Source: Rhodohalobacter barkolensis (lineage in GTDB: Bacteria > Bacteroidota > Rhodothermia > Balneolales > Balneolaceae). From it: 64,000 bases of DNA. Positions 1-60,312 of the stretch are shown here, piece after piece. The stretch's first letter is position 1, and every line of letters starts with the position of its first letter. The position numbers and the translations under genes were made by a program. The stretch is taken from positions 496,001-560,000 of the forward strand of contig NZ_PISP01000003.1 in assembly GCF_002834295.1 (NCBI RefSeq), read 5' to 3'. Under the pieces are notes generated by a model that worked only from the letters and a program-made list of their open reading frames with translations, did not search any database and was not told the origin of the DNA.

Positions 1-101
1 TTATTATAGCCCACGGCGGAACGATGGACGTTAAAAATTTACCCGGTAAAGGCTCCACATTCACGATTTACGTAGAAAAACATGGACAAGATGGATTCTA
101 A
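1..101 (+). CDS. Histidine kinase, C-terminal end only (partial)
   Basis: The frame beginning at base 3 is open from the window edge to a TAA at 99-101 and reads IIAHGGTMDVKNLPGKGSTF followed by TIYVEKHGQDGF. The AHGG...GKGSTF pattern is the last part of a HATPase_c domain (the helix after the G2 box and the final strand), so this is the 3' end of a sensor histidine kinase whose body lies outside the window. It overlaps the next gene by 20 bp in another frame, so the two kinases are probably co-transcribed. Only about 32 residues are visible, so sensor type is unknown. Confidence 0.7.
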   Translation, partial: IIAHGGTMDVKNLPGKGSTFTIYVEKHGQDGF

Positions 102-3100
102 AAAGAAAAAAAGCCTGGAGGAATCCTACGAACGAATCATAAATGTGGGCTTCTGTATCGTACCATACGAGGATTTGTCGGATATCATCGACATCAATCC
201 GGTGGTTTTTGGTACCACAAAAGATGAAAAAATCTTTTCGATTGAAGAGGTCGACGCACTGTTCAAATCTCAGTTTGAGCAGATGGGAAATATGAAGCCC
301 GCGCTTGACCGCGAGAGGATTGCCACACGAATATCACCTGATGGCAACCATGGGTTTATCGTAGAAGAGATTACTCTTACTCTCTCTTCCCCCGAAGAGA
401 CAAATACGATCTTCATGCGGGCCAGCTGCGTGATGGAATACGTTGAAAATCGTTGGAAACTCACCCACTGGCACACCTCCACCCCTGTGGATACGGAGAA
501 TGACCACTGGCACATGGAGGAGTGGAAACGGGAAAAGGAGAAGCTTCAGAAGCTTGTTGATCAGCAAACAGCCGATCTGCACGGCAAAAACAGGGAATTG
601 GAAATTGAAGCCTCCATCGAAAGGGTGCGGTCGGTGGCCATGGGGATGACCAAACCGGACGATATGCTGAAGGTTTGCCGCGTCATTTCAGACCAGCTTC
701 AGCAATTCGGCGTGGAGCACATCCGGAATGTGCAGACGGTGATTGTCAACGAGGGAAAAGGCACCTACCACAACTATCAGTATTTCACGCCTTACGATAA
801 AGAGTCCTTTGAAATAACAGATTGTCACAAAAATCCGACTGTGCAGGCGATGATTGACCACATGCTGGAATCACCGGATGCTTTTTTCACCACAAATTTA
901 ATCGGAGAGGAGCTGGCAACTTTTCGGTCTTATCGCAAAAAGGAAAACCAGTTTCCCGATCCCCTGCTTGATGACACCAAATCTCTCAATGGATATTTTT
1001 TCTCGATTGGTCCCGGCGGACTGGGGATCACCTTATACCGACCGCTGAATGAAGACGGACTGGAAATTTTCAAGCGTTTTCACAACGTCTTTTCACTGGC
1101 CTACCGCAGATTCCGGGATATTGAAAAAGCCGAGGCCCAGGCGCGTGAAGCGCGGATCGAACTTTCCCTGGAGCGAATCCGCGCACAGGTTACCGCCATG
1201 CAAGAATCATCCGACCTGCTCGATATTGTAGTCACTATGCGATCGGAATTTGTAAACCTCGGATATGAGGCCCATTATTTCTGGCACATGCGATGGCTGC
1301 CTGAAAAATATGATAAGGCGATGACATCCGGCGACGGTAAGCGCATCGGCATGGTGATGACCCTCCCCCGCCATATTCACGGGGATATTCAACCCTTAGC
1401 CGAGTGGGAAAAGAGTAAGGAACCTACATATGTCTTAGCTATGGACGTGGACACGGCCGTGGATTACGTGGACAAAATGATCTCCCTCGGTGATTTTGAG
1501 CAGGTGGATCCACAGGCGCCTACCCTCGACGATATTCGGCACATCGGCGGACTCACATTCATCATGGCGCGAACCACCCACGGAGAGATCGGATACAGCC
1601 TGCCGGGTGTCGTGCCCGATCCTCCAAAAGATGCAGTCGATACCCTGGTACGATTCGCGGGCGTATTTGACCTGGCATACAAAAGGTTTGAAGATTTGAA
1701 AGCCGCCGAGCGTCAGCATCGCGAAGCTCAGATAGAGCTGGCACTGGAAAGAGTCAGAGCCCGCACCATGGCCATGCAAACATCTGATGAATTTGCCGAT
1801 GTTGCTGCTGTACTGTTTGATCAGGTTAGAACATTGGGTGGCAATCTCTGGGGGACCGGATTCGGGTTGTGTGAAGAGGATGCGGAAAATGACGAGTTCT
1901 GGTTCGCAAACGAAAATGGCGTCTTCCCGGCTGTTTCAATTCCCAATACCGAAGATCCTGCCCATAAACAGATGGTTGAGGGCTGGAAAAGCAATAAGGA
2001 ATTTCTGGCATTGGAAGGGAGCGGAGAAGACCTCAAAAACCACTACAATTATATGATGACCCTTCCTGAGGTCAGGCCGTTTTTCCAGAAAATCCTGGAT
2101 GAGGGTCTCACCTTTCCGGAATGGCAGCAGTGGAATGCGGCCTATTTTTCACACGGCTACCTGTTGATTATTACGCTCGAACCGTATTCGAATCAGGAGA
2201 TCCTCAAACGATTTGCCCGGGTCTTTGATCAGACCTACACCCGCTTCCTCGACCTCAAGAAAGCGGAAGCCCAGGCGCGGGAATCAGAGATTCAGCTGGC
2301 GCTGGAGCGGGTGAGAGCCAGAAGCATGGCCATGCATCAAAGTGATGAGCTGGCCGACCTTTCCCTGGAACTGGTTAAGCAGGTTCATGCACTGGGCATC
2401 GATACCTGGTTCTGTGCATTTAACATCTATGATGATCATCCGGAAGGATCGATTGAATGGGGCAGTAACGGCCATGGAACATTTCCCAGGTACAGAACGC
2501 CAAGAGAAGGAGTCTTTCTGGACTATTATGAAGCCGGTCAACGGGGAGAAACACTCCTGATCAATGAGATTGGAGAGGATGAGTGCCCCGCTCACTACGA
2601 CTTTTTATGCAGCCTGCCGGGCGTGGGTGAGCAGCTTCTTCAAATGAAAGATGCGGGTATTCCCTTTCCGGCGTACCAGATCGATCATGCCGCTTTCTTC
2701 AGGTATGGATATATCCTCTTCATCACCTTTGAACCGGTCCCTGAAGCCCATGATATCTTTAAACGCTTTGCCAAAGTGTTCCAGCAGACATATACCCGTT
2801 TTCTTGACCTTCAAAAATCGGAGGAACAGGCGCGTGAAGCCAAAATCGAAGCGGCATTGGAACGGGTTAGATCTCGATCGATGGGAATGCACAAAAGTGA
2901 TGAACTGATCGAGGTTGTTAGGGAAATCGGAAAGGGAATTCATGAACTGGGTATACAGCTCCACTACTCTCAAATTTATACTGACTATACACATGACCCG
3001 AAAACAGATGTAAATATCTGGTTGGATGTTGAGGGGCAAGATTACCTCGAAAAATTTCATCTTCCCTATATCGACCATACCATCACCTTAAATTTTTACA

Positions 3101-6072
3101 ACGCACTGAACGAAGGTCTGGATTATTTCAGTGATCGCTATTCAAAGGCGGAAAAAAACTCCTATTTCAAGCTGCTGTTCAAATATTCTGACCTCAAAAG
3201 AATACCCAAAAAAAGAAAAGAACTGGTTCTCAATGCTTCCGGATGGACACGATTTACAGTAATCCTAAATGAAGCCTCCTTAAATTTTGGCCGATACAGC
3301 CTGGATGAATTCACAGATGAAGAACACGAGATTTTCATACGATTTGCAAAGGTTTTTGGACAGGCCTACACTCGTTTTCTGGATCTCAAGAAAGCAGAAG
3401 AACAGGCTCGCGAAGCGGAGATCGAAGCGGCATTGGAACGGGTGCGATCCCGTTCACTCGCGATGCACAAACCCGATGAACTGCAGGACGTAGTGCGGGT
3501 GGTTGCTGAAGAATTAAAGAACACCGGCGTGATTCTTGATACTGGCGGGGCCGTGATCTGCACCTATTTCCAAGACTCCAGGGATGTGATACACTGGACT
3601 GCAACCGATGACCCGGCTCATCCTTCCGTACCCTACCTGTTACCGTATTTTGAAGATGAACTTTTCGATGAAGCATGGGAATCCAAAAGCCGGGGAGACG
3701 ACTATTTTGCGAAAGTATTTTCCTATGATGTAAAAAACGCATTCTTCAGTCATGCCTTTGAGCATTCCGATTACCGGCAGCTACCCGATGAGTACAAAAA
3801 GATCATTTTAGAGAGTAAAAGCCATGGCCTTGCATGGGCCTGGGCCGAAAACTCGGCCATAATGATCCCCTCTATTCAGGGAGATTTGCCTTCGGAAGAA
3901 GAAAAGAAAAACCTGATTCGTTTTGCAAAGGTGTTTGAGCAATCGTTTATTCGCTTTCTTGACCTCCAAAAAGCGGAAGCGCAGGCAAGGGAGGCCAAAA
4001 TCGAAGCCGCCCTGGAGAAGGTCAGATCACGCACTATGGGCATGCAGTCCAGCGATGAGCTGCCGGAAGTAGCCAACATGCTGTTTCTGGAGGTGCAAGC
4101 CCTCGGTATTCCTGCATGGAGCAGCGGCTTTAACATCCTTGCCGAAGATAAGAGATCAGCTGCCGCCTGGATGAGCAGTGAAGGTACTCTTCAGGATCCA
4201 TTTACCCTGCGCTTATACGGAGAAGCTTCCTTTGATGAAATGGGGGATTTTCTTCGTAGAAATGAGGCCTTTATGGTACAGGAACTCGGTGGTGAGGCAT
4301 TGAAGGAGCACTATAAATACATGAAGACCTTTCCGGATCTAAAACCAACATTCAAAAAACTTGAGGAGCAGGGCCTTTCCCTTCCCTCCTACCAGATTAA
4401 CCACCTGTGCAAATTCAACCATGGGTTTCTCCTGTTCATTACCTACGAGCCGGTTCCTGATGCTCATAATATTTTCAAAAGATTTACCAGGGTATTTGAC
4501 CAAACCTACACCCGTTTTCTGGATCTGAAAAAGGCGGAGGCGCAAGCCATTGAGGCCACCAAGCAGGCCTCCTTAGACCGGGTGCGTGGTGAAATAGCAA
4601 GTATGCGATCCGCTGAGGATCTTGAGATCATCACCCCATTAATCTGGAATGAGCTTAAAACTCTTGATATACCCTTCATCCGCTGCGGGGTCTTTATCAT
4701 CCATGAAGAGGAAGAAGAGATAGAAGTCTATCTATCCAAACCCGACGGCACCTCCCTGGCAGTCATGCACCTTTCGTTCGGCTCCAGTGATCTCGTCAAT
4801 CAAACGGTGGACGCCTGGCGAAATGGCAGCGTCTACACACAACACTGGACCCAGGAAGAATTCTTGGACTGGGGCGGGTCTATGATGGAGCAAGGACAAA
4901 TTCCGGACCTCGAAACATACCAGGGCGCCGAAGAAGCACCAGAATCCCTGCACCTGCACTTTATCCCCTTTAACCAGGGAATGCTCTATGTTGGATCCAC
5001 CGGTCCACTCAGTGAGGAGGAAATTGACCTCGCAGCTTCCCTCGCCAAAGCTTTCTCCATCGCCTACGCCCGGTACGAAGATTTTGTGAAATTGGAAAAA
5101 GCCAAGGCAGGCATTGAAGATGCTTTAGCCGAACTCAAAGCCACACAGTCGCAATTGGTACAGCAAGAGAAGCTCGCCTCCCTCGGACAACTCACAGCCG
5201 GCATTGCCCATGAGATTAAGAATCCACTGAATTTCGTGAATAACTTTTCGGAGCTGAGTGTGGAATTGGTGGAGGAGGCACGGGAGGAGGTGAGGAATAC
5301 TCCCCTCTTGAGAGGGGTCGGGGGTGTGTCTGAAAAGGCAGGGAACAGTGATCAACCTCAGGATTCCGATGTAGATCCAAGTTCAGCTAACACACCCCTC
5401 AATCCCCTCTCAAGAGGGGAAGCTGGATCGAGCGCCAATCCCTCCCTCCTGCTCGAAATCCTCGACGATATCGAGGCCAACCTCAAAACCATCCATAAAC
5501 ACGGCTCACGGGCAGACTCCATCGTGAAATCCATGCTACAGCACTCGCGCGGCGGCGATGGTAAAATGGAGCCGACACCGCTGAATCCGCTCATCAAAGA
5601 GTATGTAAACTTAGCCTTCCACGGCATGCGTGCAGCGAAAGAACCCATCAATGTAGATATCGACCTGCAGCTTGATGAGAGTGTTGGCGAGATACCGCTG
5701 GTGGCCGAAGACTTTTCGCGGGTGATTTTGAACCTGGTGAATAACGCGTTTGATGCGATGAAGGAGAAGGTGTCCAAAGACCTGATAGGTTTTGAAAACC
5801 TGTCAGGTCTCGAGCCCTATTCCCCAAAACTAACCGTTCGAACTAAGTCTGATGGCGGTAGGGTAACCATCGGAATCGAAGACAACGGTCCGGGCATCCC
5901 CGACGAAATGAAGGATAAAATCCTGCAACCGTTTTTTACGACAAAGAAAGGGACACAGGGTACCGGGCTGGGATTGAGCATTACCAATGATATTGTGAAG
6001 GCGCATGGGGGTCAGATTAATATCGAATCTGAATACGGCTCCACTTGTTTCAAAATTATACTATCGAAATAA
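82..6072 (+). CDS. Giant multi-sensor histidine kinase (NTF2/SnoaL-like N-terminus, eight tandem sensory modules)
   Basis: A 1,996-residue soluble sensor kinase with no membrane segment. Residues ~10-150 resemble a SnoaL/NTF2-like domain. Then come eight modules of ~185 residues, each opened by a charged linker of the form AREAxIExALERVRSRxMAM (about residues 173, 357, 550, 733, 921, 1111, 1305 and 1491) and closed by a helix like FKRFAKVFxQTYTRFLDL; they look like GAF-type sensors. A coiled coil leads into HisKA (GQLTAGIAHEIKNPLNFVNN, phospho-acceptor His1710) and HATPase_c (NLVNNAFDAM; DNGPGIP; GTGLGLSITNDIVKAHGG). No receiver is attached, so a separate response regulator is needed. Two palindromic repeats sit inside the kinase region in frame (residues ~1741-1780 and ~1900-1910). 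The start at 82 gives MDKMDSKKKK; ATG at 91 is an alternative. Ligands are unknown. Confidence 0.9.
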   Translation: MDKMDSKKKKSLEESYERIINVGFCIVPYEDLSDIIDINPVVFGTTKDEKIFSIEEVDALFKSQFEQMGNMKPALDRERIATRISPDGNHGFIVEEITLTLSSPEETNTIFMRASCVMEYVENRWKLTHWHTSTPVDTENDHWHMEEWKREKEKLQKLVDQQTADLHGKNRELEIEASIERVRSVAMGMTKPDDMLKVCRVISDQLQQFGVEHIRNVQTVIVNEGKGTYHNYQYFTPYDKESFEITDCHKNPTVQAMIDHMLESPDAFFTTNLIGEELATFRSYRKKENQFPDPLLDDTKSLNGYFFSIGPGGLGITLYRPLNEDGLEIFKRFHNVFSLAYRRFRDIEKAEAQAREARIELSLERIRAQVTAMQESSDLLDIVVTMRSEFVNLGYEAHYFWHMRWLPEKYDKAMTSGDGKRIGMVMTLPRHIHGDIQPLAEWEKSKEPTYVLAMDVDTAVDYVDKMISLGDFEQVDPQAPTLDDIRHIGGLTFIMARTTHGEIGYSLPGVVPDPPKDAVDTLVRFAGVFDLAYKRFEDLKAAERQHREAQIELALERVRARTMAMQTSDEFADVAAVLFDQVRTLGGNLWGTGFGLCEEDAENDEFWFANENGVFPAVSIPNTEDPAHKQMVEGWKSNKEFLALEGSGEDLKNHYNYMMTLPEVRPFFQKILDEGLTFPEWQQWNAAYFSHGYLLIITLEPYSNQEILKRFARVFDQTYTRFLDLKKAEAQARESEIQLALERVRARSMAMHQSDELADLSLELVKQVHALGIDTWFCAFNIYDDHPEGSIEWGSNGHGTFPRYRTPREGVFLDYYEAGQRGETLLINEIGEDECPAHYDFLCSLPGVGEQLLQMKDAGIPFPAYQIDHAAFFRYGYILFITFEPVPEAHDIFKRFAKVFQQTYTRFLDLQKSEEQAREAKIEAALERVRSRSMGMHKSDELIEVVREIGKGIHELGIQLHYSQIYTDYTHDPKTDVNIWLDVEGQDYLEKFHLPYIDHTITLNFYNALNEGLDYFSDRYSKAEKNSYFKLLFKYSDLKRIPKKRKELVLNASGWTRFTVILNEASLNFGRYSLDEFTDEEHEIFIRFAKVFGQAYTRFLDLKKAEEQAREAEIEAALERVRSRSLAMHKPDELQDVVRVVAEELKNTGVILDTGGAVICTYFQDSRDVIHWTATDDPAHPSVPYLLPYFEDELFDEAWESKSRGDDYFAKVFSYDVKNAFFSHAFEHSDYRQLPDEYKKIILESKSHGLAWAWAENSAIMIPSIQGDLPSEEEKKNLIRFAKVFEQSFIRFLDLQKAEAQAREAKIEAALEKVRSRTMGMQSSDELPEVANMLFLEVQALGIPAWSSGFNILAEDKRSAAAWMSSEGTLQDPFTLRLYGEASFDEMGDFLRRNEAFMVQELGGEALKEHYKYMKTFPDLKPTFKKLEEQGLSLPSYQINHLCKFNHGFLLFITYEPVPDAHNIFKRFTRVFDQTYTRFLDLKKAEAQAIEATKQASLDRVRGEIASMRSAEDLEIITPLIWNELKTLDIPFIRCGVFIIHEEEEEIEVYLSKPDGTSLAVMHLSFGSSDLVNQTVDAWRNGSVYTQHWTQEEFLDWGGSMMEQGQIPDLETYQGAEEAPESLHLHFIPFNQGMLYVGSTGPLSEEEIDLAASLAKAFSIAYARYEDFVKLEKAKAGIEDALAELKATQSQLVQQEKLASLGQLTAGIAHEIKNPLNFVNNFSELSVELVEEAREEVRNTPLLRGVGGVSEKAGNSDQPQDSDVDPSSANTPLNPLSRGEAGSSANPSLLLEILDDIEANLKTIHKHGSRADSIVKSMLQHSRGGDGKMEPTPLNPLIKEYVNLAFHGMRAAKEPINVDIDLQLDESVGEIPLVAEDFSRVILNLVNNAFDAMKEKVSKDLIGFENLSGLEPYSPKLTVRTKSDGGRVTIGIEDNGPGIPDEMKDKILQPFFTTKKGTQGTGLGLSITNDIVKAHGGQINIESEYGSTCFKIILSK
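5301..5420 (+). repeat. In-frame 120-bp element made of two inverted hairpin units
   Basis: The left unit (5301-5329) is a hairpin CCCCTCTTGAGAGGGG followed by TCGGGGGTGTGT. The right unit (5390-5420) is nearly its reverse complement: ACACACCCCTCAAT followed by CCCCTCTCAAGAGGGG. Together they form terminal inverted repeats around 60 bp of unique sequence. The length of 120 bp is a whole number of codons, so the kinase frame stays open and gains about 40 residues (PLLRGVGGV...NPLSRGEAG) between the HisKA helices. The same architecture is free-standing at 60188-60312. Confidence 0.85.
5778..5810. repeat. 33-bp palindrome inside the kinase ATPase domain
   Basis: AGACCTGATAGGTTTT and its near-perfect reverse complement AAAACCTGTCAGGTCT (one mismatch in 16) flank a central G. 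The element is 11 codons long and encodes part of DLIGFENLSGLE between the N box and the G1 box. The second multi-sensor kinase has a different-sequence palindrome of the same length and layout in the same place (27258-27290). Confidence 0.8.
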
Positions 6073-6639: not shown

Positions 6640-6960
6640 ATGCGTTGTTCATTTTGGATCAAAAAATGTTAATTAGCAAGAGTACCGGTTATCGAGCGAC
6701 ATTTCATTTCGATGTTTGCAATGACTCGGATCGGTAACAACACTCACACTATATCTAACCTCATTATTTTATAGATATAATTGCAAATGATTCAGTAATA
6801 TGTAATTCATTGGTTCGGATGGGATACATCCAGTGCAGTTCTTTTTACCGGAAGCATTCGATTGGCGTACCGGGATTTTTTATATAACAAAATGCAAGGA
6901 GGGTCGAATCCATTTAAGAACCAACTAGGATGAAGGCCCCGGCTCTTGCCATTTAATTGC
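6640..6960. other. Intergenic region upstream of the HTCS gene
   Basis: About 320 bp with no supported gene. It is AT-rich in the middle and holds an AAGGAGG sequence at about 6896-6902, which is ~60 bases from the likely ATG of the next gene and so probably does not serve it. No clear promoter or terminator was recognised. Confidence 0.4.
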
Positions 6961-9900
6961 ATGTTTAAACAAACAACTCTATCGTCACCTGCCAGGTGTT
7001 TTGGGATCCTGATGGTACTCCTGCCACTGTTTTTATTGGCTGCCTGTACCGAAACGTCCGGAGATCGGAACGCTTCACTCCCACCACCCCTTTATTCTCA
7101 ACCTAAAACGTTTGAATTAAATGCAGGTGTATCCATTCCTGCCACACCAAAAATCATCCACCCCGACAGCGTGGCCAAACCCCAATCTTTTACCGTTGAC
7201 CCCGCAGCATTAACTACAATAAATACCCCATCAAACCGACATCAAATACCCAAAGAACGTACCATCATACCCATTGATAAAAGCCAGCTCAAAACCATAA
7301 GAGTGGGCGAAGGCAATCCCGATTTTGTATTGGTGAATAGCATGGGTGACACGATACCCACAGGCACACCTATTCCAGCGAGGGGTATAGTGGTAAAAGC
7401 TATTCATTCTAAACCTACCCGAGCCCTGCCCCCATCTACTAAAGATGCCGCCATTGCCAATCTGCAATATTTAAATATGGAGCATGGTATGGCTTCATCC
7501 TTCGTAAGGGCTGTTTTAGAAGACAAAAGCGGAAATATTTGGATTGGGTCTCGGGGCGGTGTAAGTATATTTAATGGTGAAAGCTTAACCCACTACACTG
7601 AAAATGAAGGCTTATCCAATAATTTCATCAGGGCCATCCTGGAGGACAAAAATGGAAATATCTGGCTGGGCACGGAAGGCGGTGGGGTGAGCGTATTTGA
7701 CGGGGAAAGTTTTATCCATTACACCGAAAACGAAGGATTACCCAGTAATTTAGTCAGAGCCATCCTGGAGGACAATAGCGGAAATATCTGGCTGGGGACT
7801 CGAAGAGGTGTTAGCGTATTTGATGGAGAAAACTTTACCCATTACTCTGAAAAAGAAGGATTATCCTATGGTGATATCATGTCCATCGCTGAAGATCAGA
7901 GCGGGAATATCTGGTTTGGGACTTTTTACGGTGGGATAAACCTATTTGATGGAAAAAGCTTTACCCATTACAGCGAAAACGAAGGCTTATCCAATAGTAA
8001 TGTCGTGTCCATCTTGGAGGATCAAAGTGGAAATATCTGGCTGGGCACGGATGGTGGTGGGGTTAGTCTGTTTGATGGCGAAAGCTTTACACATTTTAGC
8101 GAAAAAGATGGGCTGTCCAGTAGGTTCATCTGGTCCATCCTGGAGGATCAAAACGGAAATATCTGGCTGGGAACCCGGGGTGCCGGGGTGAACGTATTTG
8201 ATGGAGAAAGCTTTACCCATTATGGCGAAAACGAAGGATTATCCAATAATACCGTTTGGTCCATCACAGAGGATCAGAGCGGAAATATCTGGTTGGGGAC
8301 GGAAGGCGGTGGGGTGAATGTATTTAATGGCAAAAACTTTTCCCATTACACCGAGAATGAGGGTGTATCCAGCAAGGTCGTCAGGGCTATTTTAGAGGAT
8401 CGAAACGGAAATATATGGGTGGGCACCGAAGGCGATGGGGTGAGTGTATTCAATGAAGAAAGTTCCACTCATTACACCGAAACCGATGGGTTATCCTATC
8501 ATACTGTCGTTTCCATTCTGGAGGATCGAAACGGAAATATCTGGCTGGGCACCGAAGGCGGAGGAGTGAGCGTATTTGATGGAGAAAGCTTTACCCATTA
8601 CAGCGAAAACGAAGGTGTATCCAATGGTTTCGTCAGGGCTATGTTGGAGGACAAAAACGGAAACATCTGGATGGGGTCTCGGGGAAGAATAAGCGTTTTT
8701 AATGGAGAAAACTTTACCCATTACATCTATAAAGAAGGTGTATCCAATAGCGTCGTCTGGTCCATTCTGGAGGATCGAAACGGAAATATCTGGCTGGGGA
8801 CAGAAGGCGGCGGGGTAAGCCTATTTAATGGTAAAAGCTTTACCTATTACACTAAAGCCCGGGGCTTATCCAATAATATTGTCAGGGCCATCACAGAGGA
8901 TAGAAAAGGAAACATTTGGCTGGGGACCTGGGGTGGAGGAGTGAGCATTTTTAATGGAGAAAGCTTTATCCATTTCACCGAAAACGAAGGCTTATCCAAT
9001 AATACCGTCTTCTCTATCATAGAGGATAAAAGCGCTCCTTTAAATGAAGTTATCGTCTATGTAGGAACAGAAAATGGGCTTTCAAAAATTTCTTTAAAAG
9101 AAGATGAAACTTCCGCTGATGAGGAATTTGCGTTTAGTATTCAAAACTTTGATAAACAAAATGGATTGAAAGGCTTGAGATTCACATCAGGCGCCACCAT
9201 TGACAGTAAAAACCGTGCCTGGTGGGGCACAGACAAAGGGTTGGTCATGCTGGATTTGAATACGCTTAAGCTTTCTAATGAAATACCCAGGCCCCGTTTA
9301 TCTCAATTAGAAATTAACGAGCAGTATATAGACTATCGCAATATCTTAGATAGCCCCGAAAGCCAAAGGGATCAAATCAAATTTGATGGTGTGCAAAAAT
9401 TTGAGAACTATCCTCTCGGTTTAGAGTTACCCTATGATAAAAATCACATCACCTTTTATTTTGCAGCCATAGACTGGGCAGCACCGCATAAAATCCGATA
9501 TAGTTATAGAATGGAGGGCTTACATACAAATTGGAGCCAACCCACCGCCGAGCCGATGGCCGATTACCGTAACCTGCCGTTTGGTGCCCACACCCTCCAA
9601 ATCCGGGCCATCGGTGAGAGTGGAATCTGGAGTGAGCCGTTTGAGTATACATTTACCGTTCTTCCACCATGGTGGCATACTTGGTGGGCGTATGGATTGT
9701 ATGGTTTCCTGTTTCTTTCAGCAATCTATTCACTGCGGCGATACGAGCTGAACCGGTTCAATCTGAAAAATCAGCTGCAGCTTGAAAGGGTTGAAACAGA
9801 CTCTCTCCGGAAGCTCGATCAGCTAAAATCTCATTTCTTTGCCAATATCTCTCATGAATTCAGAACGCCGCTGACCCTGATTATCGGTCAAATTGAAACA

Positions 9901-11361
9901 CTGCTTGATTCTGAACATGACCGAAACAGAAAAAAGAAATTGATTTCGGCAAACAACAGTGCCGGGCAGCTTCTTTCCCTGATTAACCAGCTTCTGGATT
10001 TATCAAAGCTGGAAGCAGGAAAAATGGAATTGGTATTGATAAAACAAGACCTGGTGTCATTTTTAAAGAACCATTTCTTCTCATTTGAATCTCTTGCAGA
10101 AACAAAAAATATTCACCTCAATTTCTCATCGTCAAGATCCGCTATTTCGGTGATGATTGATACGGATAAGATGGAGAAGGTATTTTTCAATCTCTTCTCG
10201 AACGCCATCAAATTCACTGAACCCGGCGGTCATATCGATGTGTCCGTCGATATTCGTGAGTCTGATTTTGTTGAAATACGGGTGAAGGACACCGGGATCG
10301 GTATATCCCAAGATCGACTCCCTTATATTTTTGACCGCTTTTACCAGGCTGACTCCTCAAACACCCGTAAATATGAAGGAACCGGGATTGGTCTCTCCAT
10401 TGCACACGAAATGGTGATGCTGCATAACGGTACGATTGATGTGGAGAGCGATGAGGGTGTTGGAACCGAATTTATCGTCCGCCTTCCGTTTGAAGAAGAC
10501 ACCGGACGAATGGTTCATGAGTCTGATGTTGATGAGCAGGTATTGGCTGAGGATGAGACCGCCTCAAAACCACTTCCGGATTTTAAAGTACTGCTTTCGG
10601 ACCATGATGAAATCGTCCTTATTGTGGAAGATAATGGCGATGTTCGCTCTTTTATCGCTGAACAGCTGCAAGGCGAATACAAGATTTTGGAAGCCGCTAA
10701 TGGCCTGGAGGGAATTGCCGTGTCGCAGGGCACCATCCCGGATTTGATTATTACCGATCTAATGATGCCGGAAATGGACGGCTATGCGTTTAGTCAGAAA
10801 ATCCGGAGCGACGAAAAAACAAGCCATATCCCAATTATTATGCTCACAGCCAAAGCCGGCCTGAACCCCAAAATTGAGGGCCTGGAACTGGGGATTGACG
10901 CCTACCTGACGAAGCCGTTTCATGTAAAGGAGCTTCAGACAAGAGTGAGATCTCTCATTCAGCAGAGAAAAAACTTAAAACAGCAGTTCAGTAGTGCCAC
11001 TTACTTCAAGCCGTCGGTAATTGCAAAAACGTCACCTGACCAGAATTTCCTTGCCAAAGCAATTGATGTGATCAATAAAAATCTATGTAATGAAGAGTTT
11101 AAGGTTGAAGATTTTGCCGGATCACTGAACATGAGCAGCTCTCAGCTCAACCGTAAACTGAATGCTCTTGTAGATCAGCCTGCCGGACACTTTATCCGGT
11201 CTGTGCGTCTGCAGCGCTCGGCCGAACTTTTGAATCAAACCGATAAAACGATTGCTGAGATCTGTTACGAAGTTGGGTTCAGCGACCAGGCTTACTTCTC
11301 CCGCGCCTTCAAAAAACAGTTTGGAAAGAGTCCGTCGGCATTTCGAAAGTTGTCTATTTGA
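6961..11361 (+). CDS. Hybrid two-component system regulator (HTCS): propeller sensor, kinase, receiver, AraC HTH
   Basis: A 1,466-residue one-protein phosphorelay. An N-terminal signal segment ends in a lipobox-like LFLLAAC. About 14 Reg_prop blades (pattern ILEDxxGNIWLGTxGGGVSVF) form two 7-bladed propellers (about residues 180-800), followed by a Y_Y_Y domain, one membrane helix (~903-925), HisKA (SHEFRTPL, His965), HATPase_c (NLFSNAIKF; DTGIGI; GTGIGLSIA), a receiver (acceptor Asp1266 in IITDLMMPEMDG) and a C-terminal AraC-type helix-turn-helix (~1367-1464). In this family the periplasmic propellers bind a ligand, often a glycan, and the HTH activates target genes; no polysaccharide locus is nearby, so the ligand is unknown. 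The ATG at 6961 is preferred; a TTG at 6946 would add five residues. The lipobox is unusual for an HTCS and may be only a look-alike. Confidence 0.93.
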   Translation: MFKQTTLSSPARCFGILMVLLPLFLLAACTETSGDRNASLPPPLYSQPKTFELNAGVSIPATPKIIHPDSVAKPQSFTVDPAALTTINTPSNRHQIPKERTIIPIDKSQLKTIRVGEGNPDFVLVNSMGDTIPTGTPIPARGIVVKAIHSKPTRALPPSTKDAAIANLQYLNMEHGMASSFVRAVLEDKSGNIWIGSRGGVSIFNGESLTHYTENEGLSNNFIRAILEDKNGNIWLGTEGGGVSVFDGESFIHYTENEGLPSNLVRAILEDNSGNIWLGTRRGVSVFDGENFTHYSEKEGLSYGDIMSIAEDQSGNIWFGTFYGGINLFDGKSFTHYSENEGLSNSNVVSILEDQSGNIWLGTDGGGVSLFDGESFTHFSEKDGLSSRFIWSILEDQNGNIWLGTRGAGVNVFDGESFTHYGENEGLSNNTVWSITEDQSGNIWLGTEGGGVNVFNGKNFSHYTENEGVSSKVVRAILEDRNGNIWVGTEGDGVSVFNEESSTHYTETDGLSYHTVVSILEDRNGNIWLGTEGGGVSVFDGESFTHYSENEGVSNGFVRAMLEDKNGNIWMGSRGRISVFNGENFTHYIYKEGVSNSVVWSILEDRNGNIWLGTEGGGVSLFNGKSFTYYTKARGLSNNIVRAITEDRKGNIWLGTWGGGVSIFNGESFIHFTENEGLSNNTVFSIIEDKSAPLNEVIVYVGTENGLSKISLKEDETSADEEFAFSIQNFDKQNGLKGLRFTSGATIDSKNRAWWGTDKGLVMLDLNTLKLSNEIPRPRLSQLEINEQYIDYRNILDSPESQRDQIKFDGVQKFENYPLGLELPYDKNHITFYFAAIDWAAPHKIRYSYRMEGLHTNWSQPTAEPMADYRNLPFGAHTLQIRAIGESGIWSEPFEYTFTVLPPWWHTWWAYGLYGFLFLSAIYSLRRYELNRFNLKNQLQLERVETDSLRKLDQLKSHFFANISHEFRTPLTLIIGQIETLLDSEHDRNRKKKLISANNSAGQLLSLINQLLDLSKLEAGKMELVLIKQDLVSFLKNHFFSFESLAETKNIHLNFSSSRSAISVMIDTDKMEKVFFNLFSNAIKFTEPGGHIDVSVDIRESDFVEIRVKDTGIGISQDRLPYIFDRFYQADSSNTRKYEGTGIGLSIAHEMVMLHNGTIDVESDEGVGTEFIVRLPFEEDTGRMVHESDVDEQVLAEDETASKPLPDFKVLLSDHDEIVLIVEDNGDVRSFIAEQLQGEYKILEAANGLEGIAVSQGTIPDLIITDLMMPEMDGYAFSQKIRSDEKTSHIPIIMLTAKAGLNPKIEGLELGIDAYLTKPFHVKELQTRVRSLIQQRKNLKQQFSSATYFKPSVIAKTSPDQNFLAKAIDVINKNLCNEEFKVEDFAGSLNMSSSQLNRKLNALVDQPAGHFIRSVRLQRSAELLNQTDKTIAEICYEVGFSDQAYFSRAFKKQFGKSPSAFRKLSI
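7495..9030 (+). repeat. Twelve near-identical ~126-bp repeats coding for propeller blades
   Basis: Twelve consecutive blades repeat almost the same DNA (for example GAAAATATCTGGCTGGG and GAAAGCTTTACCCATTAC) with a period near 126 bp. Two more blades at the 3' end are diverged. The similarity at DNA level, not just protein level, suggests recent amplification or gene conversion between blades. Confidence 0.9.
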
Positions 11362-11366
11362 GTGAA

Positions 11367-11432
11367 TCCCCTCTCGAGAGGGGAAAAGGATTTGAAAACT
11401 GCGGAACGCAGGTTTTCAAACCGAGGGGTGTG
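11367..11432. repeat. Composite palindromic element just after the HTCS stop codon
   Basis: The outer hairpin CCCCTCTCGAGAGGGG is followed by an inner inverted repeat, GGATTTGAAAACTGCG / CGCAGGTTTTCAAACC, and then CCGAGGGGTGTGT. The outer sequence belongs to the same family as the units at 5301-5420 and 26737-26899, and the inner GAAAAC core resembles the 33-bp palindromes inside the kinases. It begins six bases after the HTCS stop and could act as an RNA hairpin at the transcript end. Confidence 0.75.
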
Positions 11433-23892: not shown

Positions 23893-26800
23893 ATGAAAAT
23901 AAAAAGTGAATCCGATATGCTCGCCAGGCTGGAACAGCGCGAAGCTGAACTTGAGGTTATTAACAGTGTTCAGGAAGCACTCGCCTCAAATATCAATTTG
24001 GAAGGTATTTATGATTTAGTGGGTGAACGCCTTCGAAATCTGTTTGATGCCCAGGTGACCGGTATCTATTCATTTGATCACGAAACCGGCCTTGAACACT
24101 TTCAGTATTTGTTTGAAGATGGCGAACGGCTATATCCCGAATCACGTCCGCTAAATAATATTCGGAAATGGATTATTGACAACAAATCCATTTTGCACAT
24201 CATGGAAGATGCCGATGATGCAATTTTTGAAATCACGGGCGAAAAACACGTAGCCGTTCCGGGAACCCGACTCCCCAAAACCCTGCTTTTTGTTCCATTA
24301 ATCGTTGGGGATACCGTAATGGGATGTGTCAGTCTCCAAAATCTGGATCGGGACCACGCTTTCAGCGAGTCAGATGTTCAGCTTCTTAGTACGCTTTCAA
24401 ACAGTATGAGCGTAGCCCTCGAAAATGCGCGGCTCTTCGACGAAACCGAGCAGCGAAATGCCGAACTGGCTGTCATCAATAGCGTACAGCAGGGATTGGT
24501 AGCCGAAATGGACATGCAGGGTATTTATGATCTGGTTGGGGAAAAAGTACGTGTGTTGTTTGATGCACAGGTTGTCATCATTGCAACCTTTAATTATGAA
24601 AGTAAACAGGAACATTTCCAATATCTATTTGAAAATGGAGAACGTGTGCAGCCCGATCCCCGTCCTTACGACAAGATTCGCCAGCGCCTGATCAATACTC
24701 AAAAACTGATCTCCATTGAAGAAAATGCCAAAGAGGCCTTTACCACTATCACCGGTGAGGCTCCTACGGCGGTTCCCGGCACCCAGTTTCCGCAGTCGAT
24801 GGTATTTGTTCCCCTTGTGGTTGGAGACACTGTTCGCGGTTATGTTAGCCTTCAAAACCTGGATCGTGAACATGCATTCAGTGAATCCGACATTAGACTA
24901 TTGAGTACACTGGCCAACAGCATGAGTGTGGCCCTCGAAAATGCACGTCTTTTTAATGAAACCGAGCAGCGAAATGCCGAACTGGCTGTCATTAATAGTG
25001 TACAGCAGGGTTTGGTAGCTGAAATGGATATGCAGGGTATTTATGATCTGGTGGGCGACCGCATTCGCGATCTCTTTGATGCGCAAGTTACCGGCGTAGT
25101 CACCTTCAACCACGATGATAAAACGGAAGATTGGAAGTACCTGTTTGAAGACGGAGCTCGAATGTATCCGAATATCCGTCCTTATGACAAAATCAGAGAG
25201 AAAATCATTAATGAAAAATCTACCCTGAATATCGCCGAAAATGTGGCTCAAATCCTTTCCGAAATAAAAGGTGAAAAAATAAAGCCTGTTCCCGGTACAC
25301 GGCTTGCAAAATCATTACTCTACGTTCCCATGATTGTAGGTGATGAAGTCAGAGGCTATCTCACACTTCAAAACAATGACCGGGAACACGCTTTCAATGA
25401 GTCGGATGTTCGGTTGTTAAGTACCCTTACTAACAGTATGAGTGTGGCCCTCGAAAATGCCAGGCTTTTCAGTGAAACCAACCGGCTATTAGCCGAAACC
25501 GAGCAGCGGAACGCCGAACTGGCCGTCATCAATAGCGTACAGGAAGGGCTGGTACGCGAAATGGATATGCATGCCATATACAAACTCGTGGGGAACCGGA
25601 TTTGTGAAGTCCTCAACACACAAACCATGCTTATCCGCACCTTTGATCACGATAAAGAGCTGGAGACCTGGGAGTATGCCATTGAGAACGGGGAACAACT
25701 TCAGATAGAACCGCGACCGTTTATCTGGGCTAATAAGCACCTCATCAAAACAAAAGAAGCTCTGCTCATTAATGAAGATTATATAGAAACAGCGAAAAAC
25801 TATGGGGATACTGAAAAAGGAGTAAGCAAGGGTTTGCCTCCAAAATCGGCCATATTTGTACCGATGATTGTGGGTGATAAAGTGGTGGGTTCCATCAGCC
25901 TTCAAAACGTAGAAAAAGAACATGCCTTTACAGAATCGGATGTTCGGCTGCTTACCACACTCACCAACAGTATGAGTGTAGCCCTCGAAAATGCCCGGCT
26001 CTTCAACGAGACGACTCGTCTGCTGAATGAAACTGAACAGAGGGCTGCTGAACTTCAGACCGTGAATAATATCAGTAAAGCGATGGTTTCTCAGCTTGAA
26101 TTTGACGCCCTTATCAAACTGGTGGGCGAGCAAATGCGGGAGACCTTCAAGGCCGACATTGTCTACCTGGCCATTCATGATCTTAAAACCGATATGCTCC
26201 ATTTTCCCTATTACTACGGGGATGTAGCCGAATCCCGACCATTTGGAAATGGGATCACCGAAAAAATCATCCTTAAGAAAGAGCCGCTGTTGGTTAATCA
26301 CGACCTGGAGGAAGCTTACGAGAAAATTGAGGCGGAGAAAAAGGGGGAAATGGTAGAATCCTATCTCGGAGTTCCCATCATAGCCGGTAAAAAATCCATT
26401 GGGGTGATCAGTGTTCAGAGTAAGGAACAGGAAAACCGATTTACCGAAAGTGACCAGCGGCTGCTTACCACCATTGCCGCCAATGTGGGTATTGCCATGC
26501 AAAACGCCGAAGCATATCAAAAACTTCAGGCGGCATTGACCGATTTGCGATCAGCCCAGGAGCAGCTCGTTCAGCAGGAGAAGTTAGCCTCCCTCGGACA
26601 ACTCACCGCCGGCATCGCCCATGAGATCAAAAACCCGCTAAACTTTGTGAATAATTTCTCAGAACTGAGTTTGGAGTTGGTAGAAGAAATGGAACATGAG
26701 ATTAGAGAGATGAGACGCGAGATGGAAGGCAAAAAGTCCCCCTTAGAAGGGGGGAGTGAGCGGAGCGAGCAGGGGGATGATAGAACAAAAATTCCTAACC

Positions 26801-27555
26801 ATCCTCAAAATATTGTGACAGATTCGGATTCATCTAACACACCCCTGCCTTCCGAATCTCCAGAGCAGGCAGGCCTCAATCCCCTCTCCAGAGGGGAGGC
26901 TGGGTCGAGCCCTCAAATGGATCTCATTCTCGAAATTCTCGACGACATCGAAATGAATCTCAAGAAAATCCATGAACACGGAACGCGGGCTGATGGAATT
27001 GTGAAGTCTATGTTGCAGCATAGCCGGGGCGGTTCAGGTAAAATGGAACCAACCGACATCAATGATTTGATCAAAGAATTTGTGAATCTCTCTTTCCATG
27101 GTATGAGGGCATCTAAGAACCCCATCAATGTGGATTTGGTATTTGAGCTGGATGAGTCCATTGGCAAAGTGCCATTGATTGCGGAAGATTTCTCGCGGGT
27201 GATTATCAATCTGAGCAACAATGCGTTTGATGCGATGAGAGAAAAGGTTACGAGCAAAGACCCCCAAGGTTTTGAAAACCTTGGAGGTCTGGATGACTAC
27301 CTCCCGAAACTCACGCTCCAAACCCATCAAAAAGACTCAACCATCACTATAGAAATTAAAGACAATGGGCCGGGGATTCCCGAGGAGATGAAAGACAAAA
27401 TACTGCAGCCTTTTTTCACGACCAAGAAAGGGACTTTGGGTACAGGGCTTGGACTGAGTATTACCAACGATATTGTAAAGGCACACGGTGGATCTTTGGA
27501 TATTCATTCGAAATCCGGAGAGTTCACTCAATTCAGAATTATGATTCCTGTATAA
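23893..27555 (+). CDS. Multi-sensor histidine kinase with five tandem GAF domains
   Basis: A 1,220-residue soluble kinase. Five GAF domains of ~170 residues follow each other (about 12-180, 190-360, 365-535, 545-715, 720-880); the first four share a linker of the type EQRNAELAVINSVQEGLVxEMDM and an end SDVRLLSTLTNSMSVALENA. Then come a coiled coil, HisKA (GQLTAGIAHEIKNPLNFVNN, His910) and HATPase_c (NLSNNAFDAM; DNGPGIP; GTGLGLSITNDIVKAHGG). The kinase half is nearly the same as that of the giant kinase at 82-6072, but the sensors differ, so sensor arrays have been swapped onto a common kinase. Two repeat elements are inserted in frame at the same places as in the other kinase. The receiver-phosphatase 154 bp downstream is the obvious partner. 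Ligands are unknown. Confidence 0.92.
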   Translation: MKIKSESDMLARLEQREAELEVINSVQEALASNINLEGIYDLVGERLRNLFDAQVTGIYSFDHETGLEHFQYLFEDGERLYPESRPLNNIRKWIIDNKSILHIMEDADDAIFEITGEKHVAVPGTRLPKTLLFVPLIVGDTVMGCVSLQNLDRDHAFSESDVQLLSTLSNSMSVALENARLFDETEQRNAELAVINSVQQGLVAEMDMQGIYDLVGEKVRVLFDAQVVIIATFNYESKQEHFQYLFENGERVQPDPRPYDKIRQRLINTQKLISIEENAKEAFTTITGEAPTAVPGTQFPQSMVFVPLVVGDTVRGYVSLQNLDREHAFSESDIRLLSTLANSMSVALENARLFNETEQRNAELAVINSVQQGLVAEMDMQGIYDLVGDRIRDLFDAQVTGVVTFNHDDKTEDWKYLFEDGARMYPNIRPYDKIREKIINEKSTLNIAENVAQILSEIKGEKIKPVPGTRLAKSLLYVPMIVGDEVRGYLTLQNNDREHAFNESDVRLLSTLTNSMSVALENARLFSETNRLLAETEQRNAELAVINSVQEGLVREMDMHAIYKLVGNRICEVLNTQTMLIRTFDHDKELETWEYAIENGEQLQIEPRPFIWANKHLIKTKEALLINEDYIETAKNYGDTEKGVSKGLPPKSAIFVPMIVGDKVVGSISLQNVEKEHAFTESDVRLLTTLTNSMSVALENARLFNETTRLLNETEQRAAELQTVNNISKAMVSQLEFDALIKLVGEQMRETFKADIVYLAIHDLKTDMLHFPYYYGDVAESRPFGNGITEKIILKKEPLLVNHDLEEAYEKIEAEKKGEMVESYLGVPIIAGKKSIGVISVQSKEQENRFTESDQRLLTTIAANVGIAMQNAEAYQKLQAALTDLRSAQEQLVQQEKLASLGQLTAGIAHEIKNPLNFVNNFSELSLELVEEMEHEIREMRREMEGKKSPLEGGSERSEQGDDRTKIPNHPQNIVTDSDSSNTPLPSESPEQAGLNPLSRGEAGSSPQMDLILEILDDIEMNLKKIHEHGTRADGIVKSMLQHSRGGSGKMEPTDINDLIKEFVNLSFHGMRASKNPINVDLVFELDESIGKVPLIAEDFSRVIINLSNNAFDAMREKVTSKDPQGFENLGGLDDYLPKLTLQTHQKDSTITIEIKDNGPGIPEEMKDKILQPFFTTKKGTLGTGLGLSITNDIVKAHGGSLDIHSKSGEFTQFRIMIPV
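26737..26899 (+). repeat. In-frame hairpin-pair element in the 5-GAF kinase
   Basis: The left unit is CCCCCTTAGAAGGGGG followed by GAGTGAGCGGAGCGAGCAGG and GGGAT (26737-26779). The right unit is ACACACCCCT ... CCTCAATCCCCTCTCCAGAGGGG (26837-26899). The right unit is split by ~30 bp that itself begins CCTGCCT and ends AGGCAGG, which looks like a nested insertion (residues PSESPEQAGL). The frame is intact. The location matches the element at 5301-5420 in the other kinase, and the flanking protein ends (SSNTPL, NPLSRGEAGSS) are shared, but the left unit belongs to a different sequence subtype. Confidence 0.8.
27258..27290. repeat. 33-bp palindrome inside the second kinase
   Basis: AGACCCCCAAGGTTTT and AAAACCTTGGAGGTCT are reverse complements with one mismatch around a central G. 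It codes for part of DPQGFENLGGLD and occupies the same position as the palindrome at 5778-5810, with the same outer AGACC, inner GGTTTTGAAAACC and outer GGTCT but a different variable segment. Confidence 0.8.
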
Positions 27556-58527: not shown

Positions 58528-59052
58528 GGTTGAATTTAAATTCAATACGTGTTTGTATTAGTTTGAAGTGTTTTAAAGTGATTATTCATCCCCCTTCAAA
58601 GGGGGATTAAGGGGGATGGCCCTTAGCATAGCGAATTATGGAAAAGTATTTCAACCATCTGGGTTACAATAAAGATCTTAAAGAGGTCGCAAGAAAACTA
58701 CGTAATGATTCCACCCCCGCTGAGATTCGACTATGGACAAAATTGTTACGAGCAAGGCAAATGAAGGGGTATCAATTCCTGAGACAAAGACCTGTATTAA
58801 ACTACATTGCTGATTTTATGTGCAAAGAGTTGCGATTAATAATTGAAGTAGACGGGGAAAGTCATGAACAGGAGCATCAATGGTATAAAGATGAGGTACG
58901 ACAAAAAGAATTGGAAAATTATGGGTTTACCATAATTAGATTTTGGAATGAAGAAATATTCAACGATTTGGAAAATGTATCCAGGGTCATTGAACATTGG
59001 ATCGATAGCCATCCCCCTGCACCCCCTTCGAAGGGGGAATTTAAATTCAACC
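58528..59052 (+). mobile_element. Candidate DUF559 element bounded by composite inverted repeats
   Basis: GGTTGAATTTAAATTC (58528-58543) and its exact reverse complement GAATTTAAATTCAACC (59037-59052) mark the ends. Inside them are matching hairpin units: left CCCCCTTCAAAGGGGG + ATTAAGGGGGATGGC and right (reversed) CCCCCTTCGAAGGGGG + TGCAGGGGGATGGC. The left end has ~46 bp of extra sequence between the two parts. A DUF559 nuclease gene is the only cargo and its last codons are encoded by the right repeat. No target duplication was identified. A mobile nature is inferred. Confidence 0.6.
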
Positions 59053-60187: not shown

Positions 60188-60312
60188 GTCCCCTCCTTTT
60201 CCAAGGAGGGGATTTAGGGGTGGTTCAAACAGACTAAAATCATTCCTCATACTTTTTTGAAAGAAAAATTACCGGCCTAACCACCCCCGACCCCTCCTTA
60301 AAAAGGAGGGGA
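60188..60312. repeat. Free-standing hairpin-pair element (MITE-like)
   Basis: The left unit is CCCCTCCTTTTCCAAGGAGG + GGATTTAGGGGTGGTT; the right unit (60279-60312) is the near reverse complement, AACCACCCCCGACC + CCTCCTTAAAAAGGAGG. Both terminal units contain internal palindromes; ~55 bp of unrelated sequence lie between. It has the same plan as the in-frame elements at 5301-5420 and 26737-26899 and no coding capacity. Confidence 0.85.

Follow-up and report, generated by a model that had tools for sequence, protein, structure and literature searches.

The window, by which we mean the whole 64,000-nucleotide stretch of Rhodohalobacter barkolensis DNA that was analysed, contains a gene whose product matches PF04480 (DUF559) at 115.4 bits against a curated cut-off of 20.6 and which is placed between two inverted palindromic units (Table 1). 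The hairpins of these units occupy 58588-58607 on the left and 59022-59037 on the right, the right unit being the inverted counterpart of the left; the left unit is missing from our strict motif scan because of its linker and the choice of fold. An earlier note on this DNA had described the gene as bounded by hairpin units and a 16-bp inverted repeat, and that description holds. The gene is one of a set, as the 3.6 Mb genome (7 contigs) has 8 PF04480 matches, 7 of them full-length (L001-L007, with L001 at the window place). All 7 full-length genes have units on both sides when inspected by eye, and no flanking units were recognised at the eighth, weak match (23.5 bits, L008). The arms vary among the copies: CCCCCTT in L001 and L002, CCCCTCC in L006 and L007, and CCCCTCT or CCCCTC in L003-L005. 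On two contigs of another genome (G016:C105 and G016:C50) several neighbouring DUF559 copies carry in-frame stops, which suggests decay following local duplication.

Table 1. Positions in the window of the DUF559 gene, its flanking units and the related repeats
Feature	Position	Strand	Remarks
Gene-less doublet (inverted triplex motifs with 64 nt between them, both feet inward)	5302..5420		In frame in histidine kinase ORF 82-6072; linkers TCG, TTG
Lone hairpin TCCCCTCTCGAGAGGGGA	11367..11384		Just 3' of ORF 6946-11361; distant AGGGGTG
Degenerate gene-less doublet	26738..26897		In frame in GAF histidine kinase ORF 23893-27555; missed by strict scan
Left copy of locus-specific palindrome GGTTGAATTTAAATTCAA	58528..58545		Candidate target duplication; no family-wide end
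Left triplex-motif unit: hairpin CCCCCTTCAAAGGGGG, linker ATTAA, foot GGGGGATG	58588..58619	+	Foot faces gene; by eye
DUF559 nuclease gene, 139 aa	58638..59057	+	PF04480; predicted Vsr/EDxHD-like PD-(D/E)XK fold
Right triplex-motif unit: foot CATCCCCC, linker TGCA, hairpin CCCCCTTCGAAGGGGG	59010..59037	-	Foot faces gene; codes protein tail
Right copy of 16-bp repeat, locus-specific palindrome	59037..59052		Private to this place
Gene-less doublet (inverted triplex motifs with 56 nt between them, both feet inward)	60189..60311		Linkers TTT, TCG

The 16-bp perfect inverted repeat consists of GGTTGAATTTAAATTC at 58528-58543 and, at 59037-59052, its complement; with a core that is itself palindromic, it doubles as a direct repeat of 14 nt. 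Among 1057 control window pairs, 2 had an inverted stretch of at least 16 nt in common between their two members. Among 256 loci, GAATTTAAATTCAA occurs only in L001 and L186, both of which represent the window place. The repeat is private to this place and therefore marks no family-wide element end; its membership of the repeat family is not supported. The 14-nt direct repeat is a possible target duplication. A search for such duplications, which the earlier note had proposed, revealed none that is general beside the outer motifs of 50 loci; the window locus has its 14-nt candidate. The same note correctly derived the C-terminus of the protein from the right repeat: the tail HPPAPPSKGEFKFNQ is coded by the right foot and hairpin. 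Read-through tails of this kind are found in other copies too (HPPVPLQRGN in L002, NPPLSPPMEGN in L031), and residues 132-139 have a pLDDT below 50 in the AlphaFold2 model. We therefore regard the PPAPPSKGE tail as repeat read-through and discard the idea that it has a role of its own.

Each unit is built in the order C-arm, loop, G-arm, linker, G-foot. The foot mirrors the sequence of the 3' G-arm instead of complementing it, and either A or T may face an arm A (arm/foot examples are GGAGGGG/GGGGTGG, GAGAGGGG/GGGGTGTG and GGAGAGGG/GGGAGAGG). Near DUF559 genes, 467 hairpins had a purine arm of asymmetric sequence; the foot was a perfect mirror of the arm in 166 of them and a perfect direct copy in 40. 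When the downstream sequences were re-dealt, the mean number of mirror feet was 38.3 and the maximum in 200 rounds was 60, compared with the 166 observed. In the perfect mirrors, the position opposite an arm A was filled by A 135 times and by T 236 times. This is a cleaner test than an early unit/foot test, which scored 0.831 versus 0.582 on all 193 units and 0.851 versus 0.581 on one unit per locus, and which was null on the 41 distinct arm-foot combinations (0.488 versus 0.464) because stray feet swell that list. Judged by their code of Y arm, R arm and mirror foot, the units are class II intrastrand triplex motifs of the BoxC/PIT/TM type.

The class II purine-motif code was defined by Holder et al. 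in 2015 for BoxC, PIT elements and TMECO (PMC4666352). According to the available text of that paper, TMECO forms a stable triplex in vitro, DMS footprinting gave no support for it in vivo, and one BoxC/TM consensus was counted 3610 times in 262 proteobacterial genomes. The units described here share with those motifs the order of Y arm, R arm and reverse-Hoogsteen foot, the A or T opposite A, the inverted doublets, the two linker types (TTA-like and CCG-like) and the intergenic dispersal, as far as the accessible part of the source describes them (PMC4666352). They differ from the E. coli consensus motifs of that source in having a nuclease gene within the element and in arm types that are far more varied. 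TMECO inverted doublets are reported in the same available text always to pair one TTA-linker with one CCG-linker motif (PMC4666352), and the window doublets likewise combine unlike linkers (TTT with TCG at 60189, TCG with TTG at 5302). Its authors report having found no mobility gene beside the motifs, and the portion of the paper available to us makes no mention of DUF559 (PMC4666352).

In the window, the pattern CCCCYYYN{0,8}RRRGGGG has 11 matches, some of them overlapping, against 0.12 expected, and none of 100 shuffles reached 11; the whole genome has 144 matches versus 3 for the backwards pattern. Besides the units at the gene, the window contains the gene-less doublets and the lone hairpin listed in Table 1. 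The doublet at 60189 has the arm type of L006 and L007, which differs from that of the window gene. The two kinase doublets (5302-5420 and 26738-26897) both lie between the HisKA and HATPase_c domains, near the end of a truncated HisKA match. The doublets at 5302 and 60189 share the layout of the units at the gene, in agreement with the proposal of the earlier note that the gene-less copies are non-autonomous relatives. Long linkers that contain a small inner hairpin (GAGCGGAGCGA-like) escape the strict scan; these occur at 26738-26790 in the window and in L023, L027 and L030.

We then compared motif density near and away from DUF559 genes in 120 loci, assembled from named-genome loci (drawn from the best 80 of 554 in a protein-only search with one subfamily query) and other loci, with the duplicates L046, L049 and L085 dropped. 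Strict motifs numbered 198 within 300 bp of the gene (2.85 per kb) versus 32 beyond 600 bp on the same contigs (0.078 per kb), a density 36-fold higher near DUF559 genes. Within 300 bp, perfect motifs were present on at least one side at 87 of the 120 loci and on both sides at 50, and these numbers rose to 90 and 56 with at most one mismatch allowed. DUF559 genes lacking the repeats, which the earlier note had named as an outcome that would speak against its idea, are thus not the rule. The 77 named loci, from the best 80 of 554, had a unit on at least one side in 67 cases and on both sides in 44. The strict scan detected no motif within 300 bp at 30 of the 120 loci; five of its negatives (L003, L004, L023, L027 and L040) have units with longer linkers or other arms when read by eye, and the same scan found a motif at 19 of the 37 loci from the organism's own genome and its relatives. 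At 34 of the 50 loci with perfect units on both sides, the nearest units both have their feet inward, compared with 25% expected. An identical stretch of at least 14 nt was common to the two flanks at 55 of 108 loci versus 11 of 1031 control windows, a count that uses 108 of the 120 loci, those with flanks shorter than 260 nt being omitted. By record titles the loci span about 17 groups at the level of phyla, and a motif-bearing locus is present in 13 of these groups, among them Planctomycetota, Nitrospirota, Fidelibacterota, Cyanobacteriota, Deinococcota and Pseudomonadota. Because some genomes have many G/C-rich hairpins, coincidence or base composition might be invoked; this explanation is excluded by the same-contig controls, the reversed-pattern controls and the shuffles, and we give it practically no credence. 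BoxC/PIT/TM repeats have been known for decades, and we know of no mobiliser for them. The recurrence of the DUF559-motif pairing in many bacterial groups suggests this enzyme as the missing spreading agent.

At the level of whole genomes, 33 of 58 relatives have a PF04480 match. With presence of DUF559 defined by E below about 1e-10, the median number of sites per Mb is 19 in the 29 relatives with the gene versus 0.44 in the 29 without (p 2.7e-8), and the backwards-pattern control shows no difference between these relatives (p 0.88). Within the genus, the 21 genomes with DUF559 have more sites than the 7 without (p 0.005). In a sample of 392 genomes from the phylum, scanned with a stricter motif pattern, counts were higher in the 165 genomes with a strong DUF559 match than in the 227 without (p 2.5e-23), and at least 10 motifs were present in 56 of the 165 versus 10 of the 227. 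At least 30 motifs were found in 24 genomes with a strong match and in one without (G130), such that abundance of the repeats where DUF559 is missing, the second outcome held to count against the idea, is not the rule either (24 of 25). The exceptions to the pairing are G130 in the phylum set and three draft genomes of the genus, G018, G004 and G014, which have 88, 26 and 23 sites, respectively, and no strong DUF559 match. Across the 58 relatives, motif number correlates with DUF559 number (Spearman 0.78, partial 0.48) and equally well with the number of RAYT genes (Spearman 0.80, partial 0.53); therefore, the genome-level DUF559 correlation alone proves little. The organism's own genome has 17 PF01797 (Y1_Tnp, RAYT-like) matches, and RAYT and triplex-motif numbers rise together across the relatives.

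The RAYT correlation fits an explanation in which another agent (for example a RAYT/Y1 transposase or replication slippage) moves the motifs and DUF559 is cargo, in the style of a composite transposon; Holder et al., in the available text, propose replication-linked instability at the motifs (PMC4666352), which would also fit. The local linkage, in contrast to the genome-level correlation, is specific to DUF559: a motif was found at none of 30 Y1_Tnp (RAYT) loci from the relatives versus 90 of 120 DUF559 loci. Moreover, the arm class follows the protein. Where the nearest protein was less than 80% identical, it had the same arm class at 62 of 84 loci, compared with a mean of 27.6 and a maximum of 46 in 2000 shuffles, an agreement to which shared host ancestry could add. 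Such covariation is not required of cargo, and a single cargo gene family across about 17 groups would be odd, which together leave transport as cargo unlikely.

Empty sites, which the earlier note had recommended looking for, were found. The window element is absent from the syntenic site in 8 of 8 genus relatives that have the flanking peptidase and SCO1 genes adjacent, and the gap between these genes is short, with no DUF559 gene or motif in the stretch read. Two genomes (G019 and G027) lack the gene-less doublet seen at 60189, and a third (G009) has it in decayed form. For MetH, 41 genomes of one genus were searched, 37 of which had the gene, and 30 loci were fetched; a DUF559 element lies in frame at one MetH loop in 4 of the 30 and the site is empty in 26. 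Both the gene-bearing and the gene-less forms are thus insertionally polymorphic. DUF559 genes with motif-coded SPLPLGEG-like linkers are also in frame in methionine synthase, leucyl-tRNA synthetase, UvrC, HsdR and adenine methylases, host identities being assigned by family models run on representatives, and the reading frames run open through the inserts. Individual cases include the LeuRS editing domain (L133, L135, L150 and L154) and UvrC (L131).

An AlphaFold2 model of the window protein (pLDDT 82, pTM 0.77) superimposes on gonococcal NGO0050 (3hrl) with Z 14.8 and an rmsd of 1.1 over 94 residues, on the homing endonuclease I-Bth0305I (3r3p) with Z 11.2 and on Vsr (1cw0) with Z 9.3; profile matches were obtained to 3hrl (E 3e-28) and 3r3p (E 6e-5). 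The model assigns the protein a Vsr/EDxHD-type PD-(D/E)XK fold, and D59, E70, D72, H76 and D85 are invariant in an alignment of 49 sequences (A3). According to the accessible text of a 2005 paper, the E. coli member, YcjD, belongs together with Vsr to the PD-(D/E)XK superfamily (PMC1189080).

With I-Bth0305I the closest solved fold after NGO0050, DUF559 might be a homing endonuclease that cuts the empty allele, as in the MetH and LeuRS loops, and is copied in by repair, the motifs being secondary passengers or safe linkers. The DUF559s carried in MetH, at the same loop in three host families, group together in a single clade (100/90), and their presence within one genus is sporadic, both as expected of homing. 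For the MetH-type copies, insertion has thus recurred at the same site of a conserved gene. Most copies, however, lie between genes, at sites unrelated to one another; gene-less doublets insert too, and the motif-protein covariation points to the motifs as substrate. We consider homing improbable on these grounds. The elements share with the EDxHD homing endonucleases and Vsr the catalytic fold and, with the former, insertion in conserved genes at one site. Unlike EDxHD homing endonucleases, the element remains part of the host protein or lies between genes, apparently without an intron or intein, and unlike either group DUF559 has no extra DNA-binding domain and is flanked by triplex motifs. 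The Vsr fold itself raises the alternative that DUF559 is a host Vsr-like enzyme of repair or hairpin processing and that motifs gather where they are bound and stabilised or edited. The available text on Caulobacter VsrA, a protein with a DUF559 domain, proposes a mismatch-repair role (PMC12907096). Against a host repair enzyme stand the patchy, multi-copy and insertional distribution and the lack, by eye, of a cytosine methyltransferase among the immediate neighbours of the gene in the window, which make this alternative very unlikely.

In E. coli M7424, as at the window locus, the gene (ycjD) continues at its 3' end directly into a motif, an intact TMECO; in E. coli K-12 the motif copy at this end is decayed. 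The available text of one study describes ycjD as polymorphic in E. coli, with eefRABCD in its place in other lineages (PMC12817139). Between sapF and fabI (L124, L125 and L128), some E. coli lineages have ycjD with triplex motifs and others have the eefRABCD efflux operon. The ycjD region (at least 80% of the query) is present in 3360 of 5426 E. coli genomes, and motif places, counted separately, range from 1 to 32 per genome (median 18); O157:H7 Sakai has 15 motif places, and another O157:H7 strain, F8492, is without ycjD. N. gonorrhoeae has one exact TMECO pair under a strict pattern, that pattern being the one of E. coli, and the units flanking NGO0050 are direct, not inverted. YcjD and NGO0050 thus resemble the window element in being DUF559 members beside triplex motifs and differ from it in being single copies with decayed or direct-repeat flanks; they are possibly domesticated. 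A phage search returned 2 of 50,697 records, PADLOC gave weak matches alone (the best at 22.6 bits), and no paper linking DUF559 to triplex repeats was found in a literature search that covered few subscription papers.

Linkage, inverted layout, mirror code, the match of arm type to protein type, insertion polymorphism and the modelled nuclease fold lead us to conclude that the locus is probably one copy of a small REPtron-like mobile element in which DUF559 mobilises the motifs. Like REPtrons, it combines a nuclease gene with inverted palindromic units, has gene-less inverted doublets and shows a unit type that follows the protein (PMC8266576, PMC3116915). Its enzyme differs, as RAYTs are HUH (Y1) enzymes and the window gene encodes a DUF559 protein, and RAYT units carry a GTAG/GGAG-type motif (PMC8266576, PMC3116915). 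The foot of the DUF559 units is a G-run mirroring the arm. The element would comprise the DUF559 gene flanked by an inverted pair of class II intrastrand triplex motifs, with feet usually gene-ward, and the motifs would serve as its recognition ends. Gene-less pairs (5302 and 60189 in the window, BoxC/TM in E. coli) would be non-autonomous copies on which cognate DUF559 proteins act in trans. In DNA made single-stranded by replication, or in supercoiled DNA, a motif would fold into a hairpin, to which the foot may or may not add a third strand; the Vsr/EDxHD-type nuclease would recognise the fold by its arms and foot and nick or cut beside it, and host repair or replication restart would then copy or re-insert the doublet.

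HUH enzymes cut and rejoin strands. A Vsr/EDxHD nuclease, to judge from its family, should hydrolyse strands without being able to rejoin them, which would leave the copying to host repair or replication. That the triplex rather than a plain hairpin is the signal seems less likely than DUF559 as mobiliser. The full scheme, in which the nuclease cuts the triplex, host repair spreads copies, including in frame (LeuRS, MetH, UvrC), and BoxC/PIT/TM are descendants of such elements, is accordingly offered as a tentative and somewhat doubtful proposal. Several observations speak against the mobiliser reading: genomes that have motifs without the gene, the feet of the MetH copies, which point outward, the direct repeats of Neisseria, the lack of a general target duplication and the repair role proposed for VsrA. 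The loci without a strict motif, the parallel with RAYT number, the motif places of O157:H7 Sakai beside an O157:H7 strain that lacks ycjD, and the single exact TMECO pair of N. gonorrhoeae count on the same side.

With a linked nuclease family, a solved structure and a member in E. coli K-12, the origin of triplex repeats becomes testable. If DUF559 does mobilise these motifs, a very common domain of unknown function would gain a biological role, studies of DNA triplexes in cells would gain natural substrates, and the proline/glycine-rich 'PSPLPLGEG' inserts in many proteins would be accounted for.
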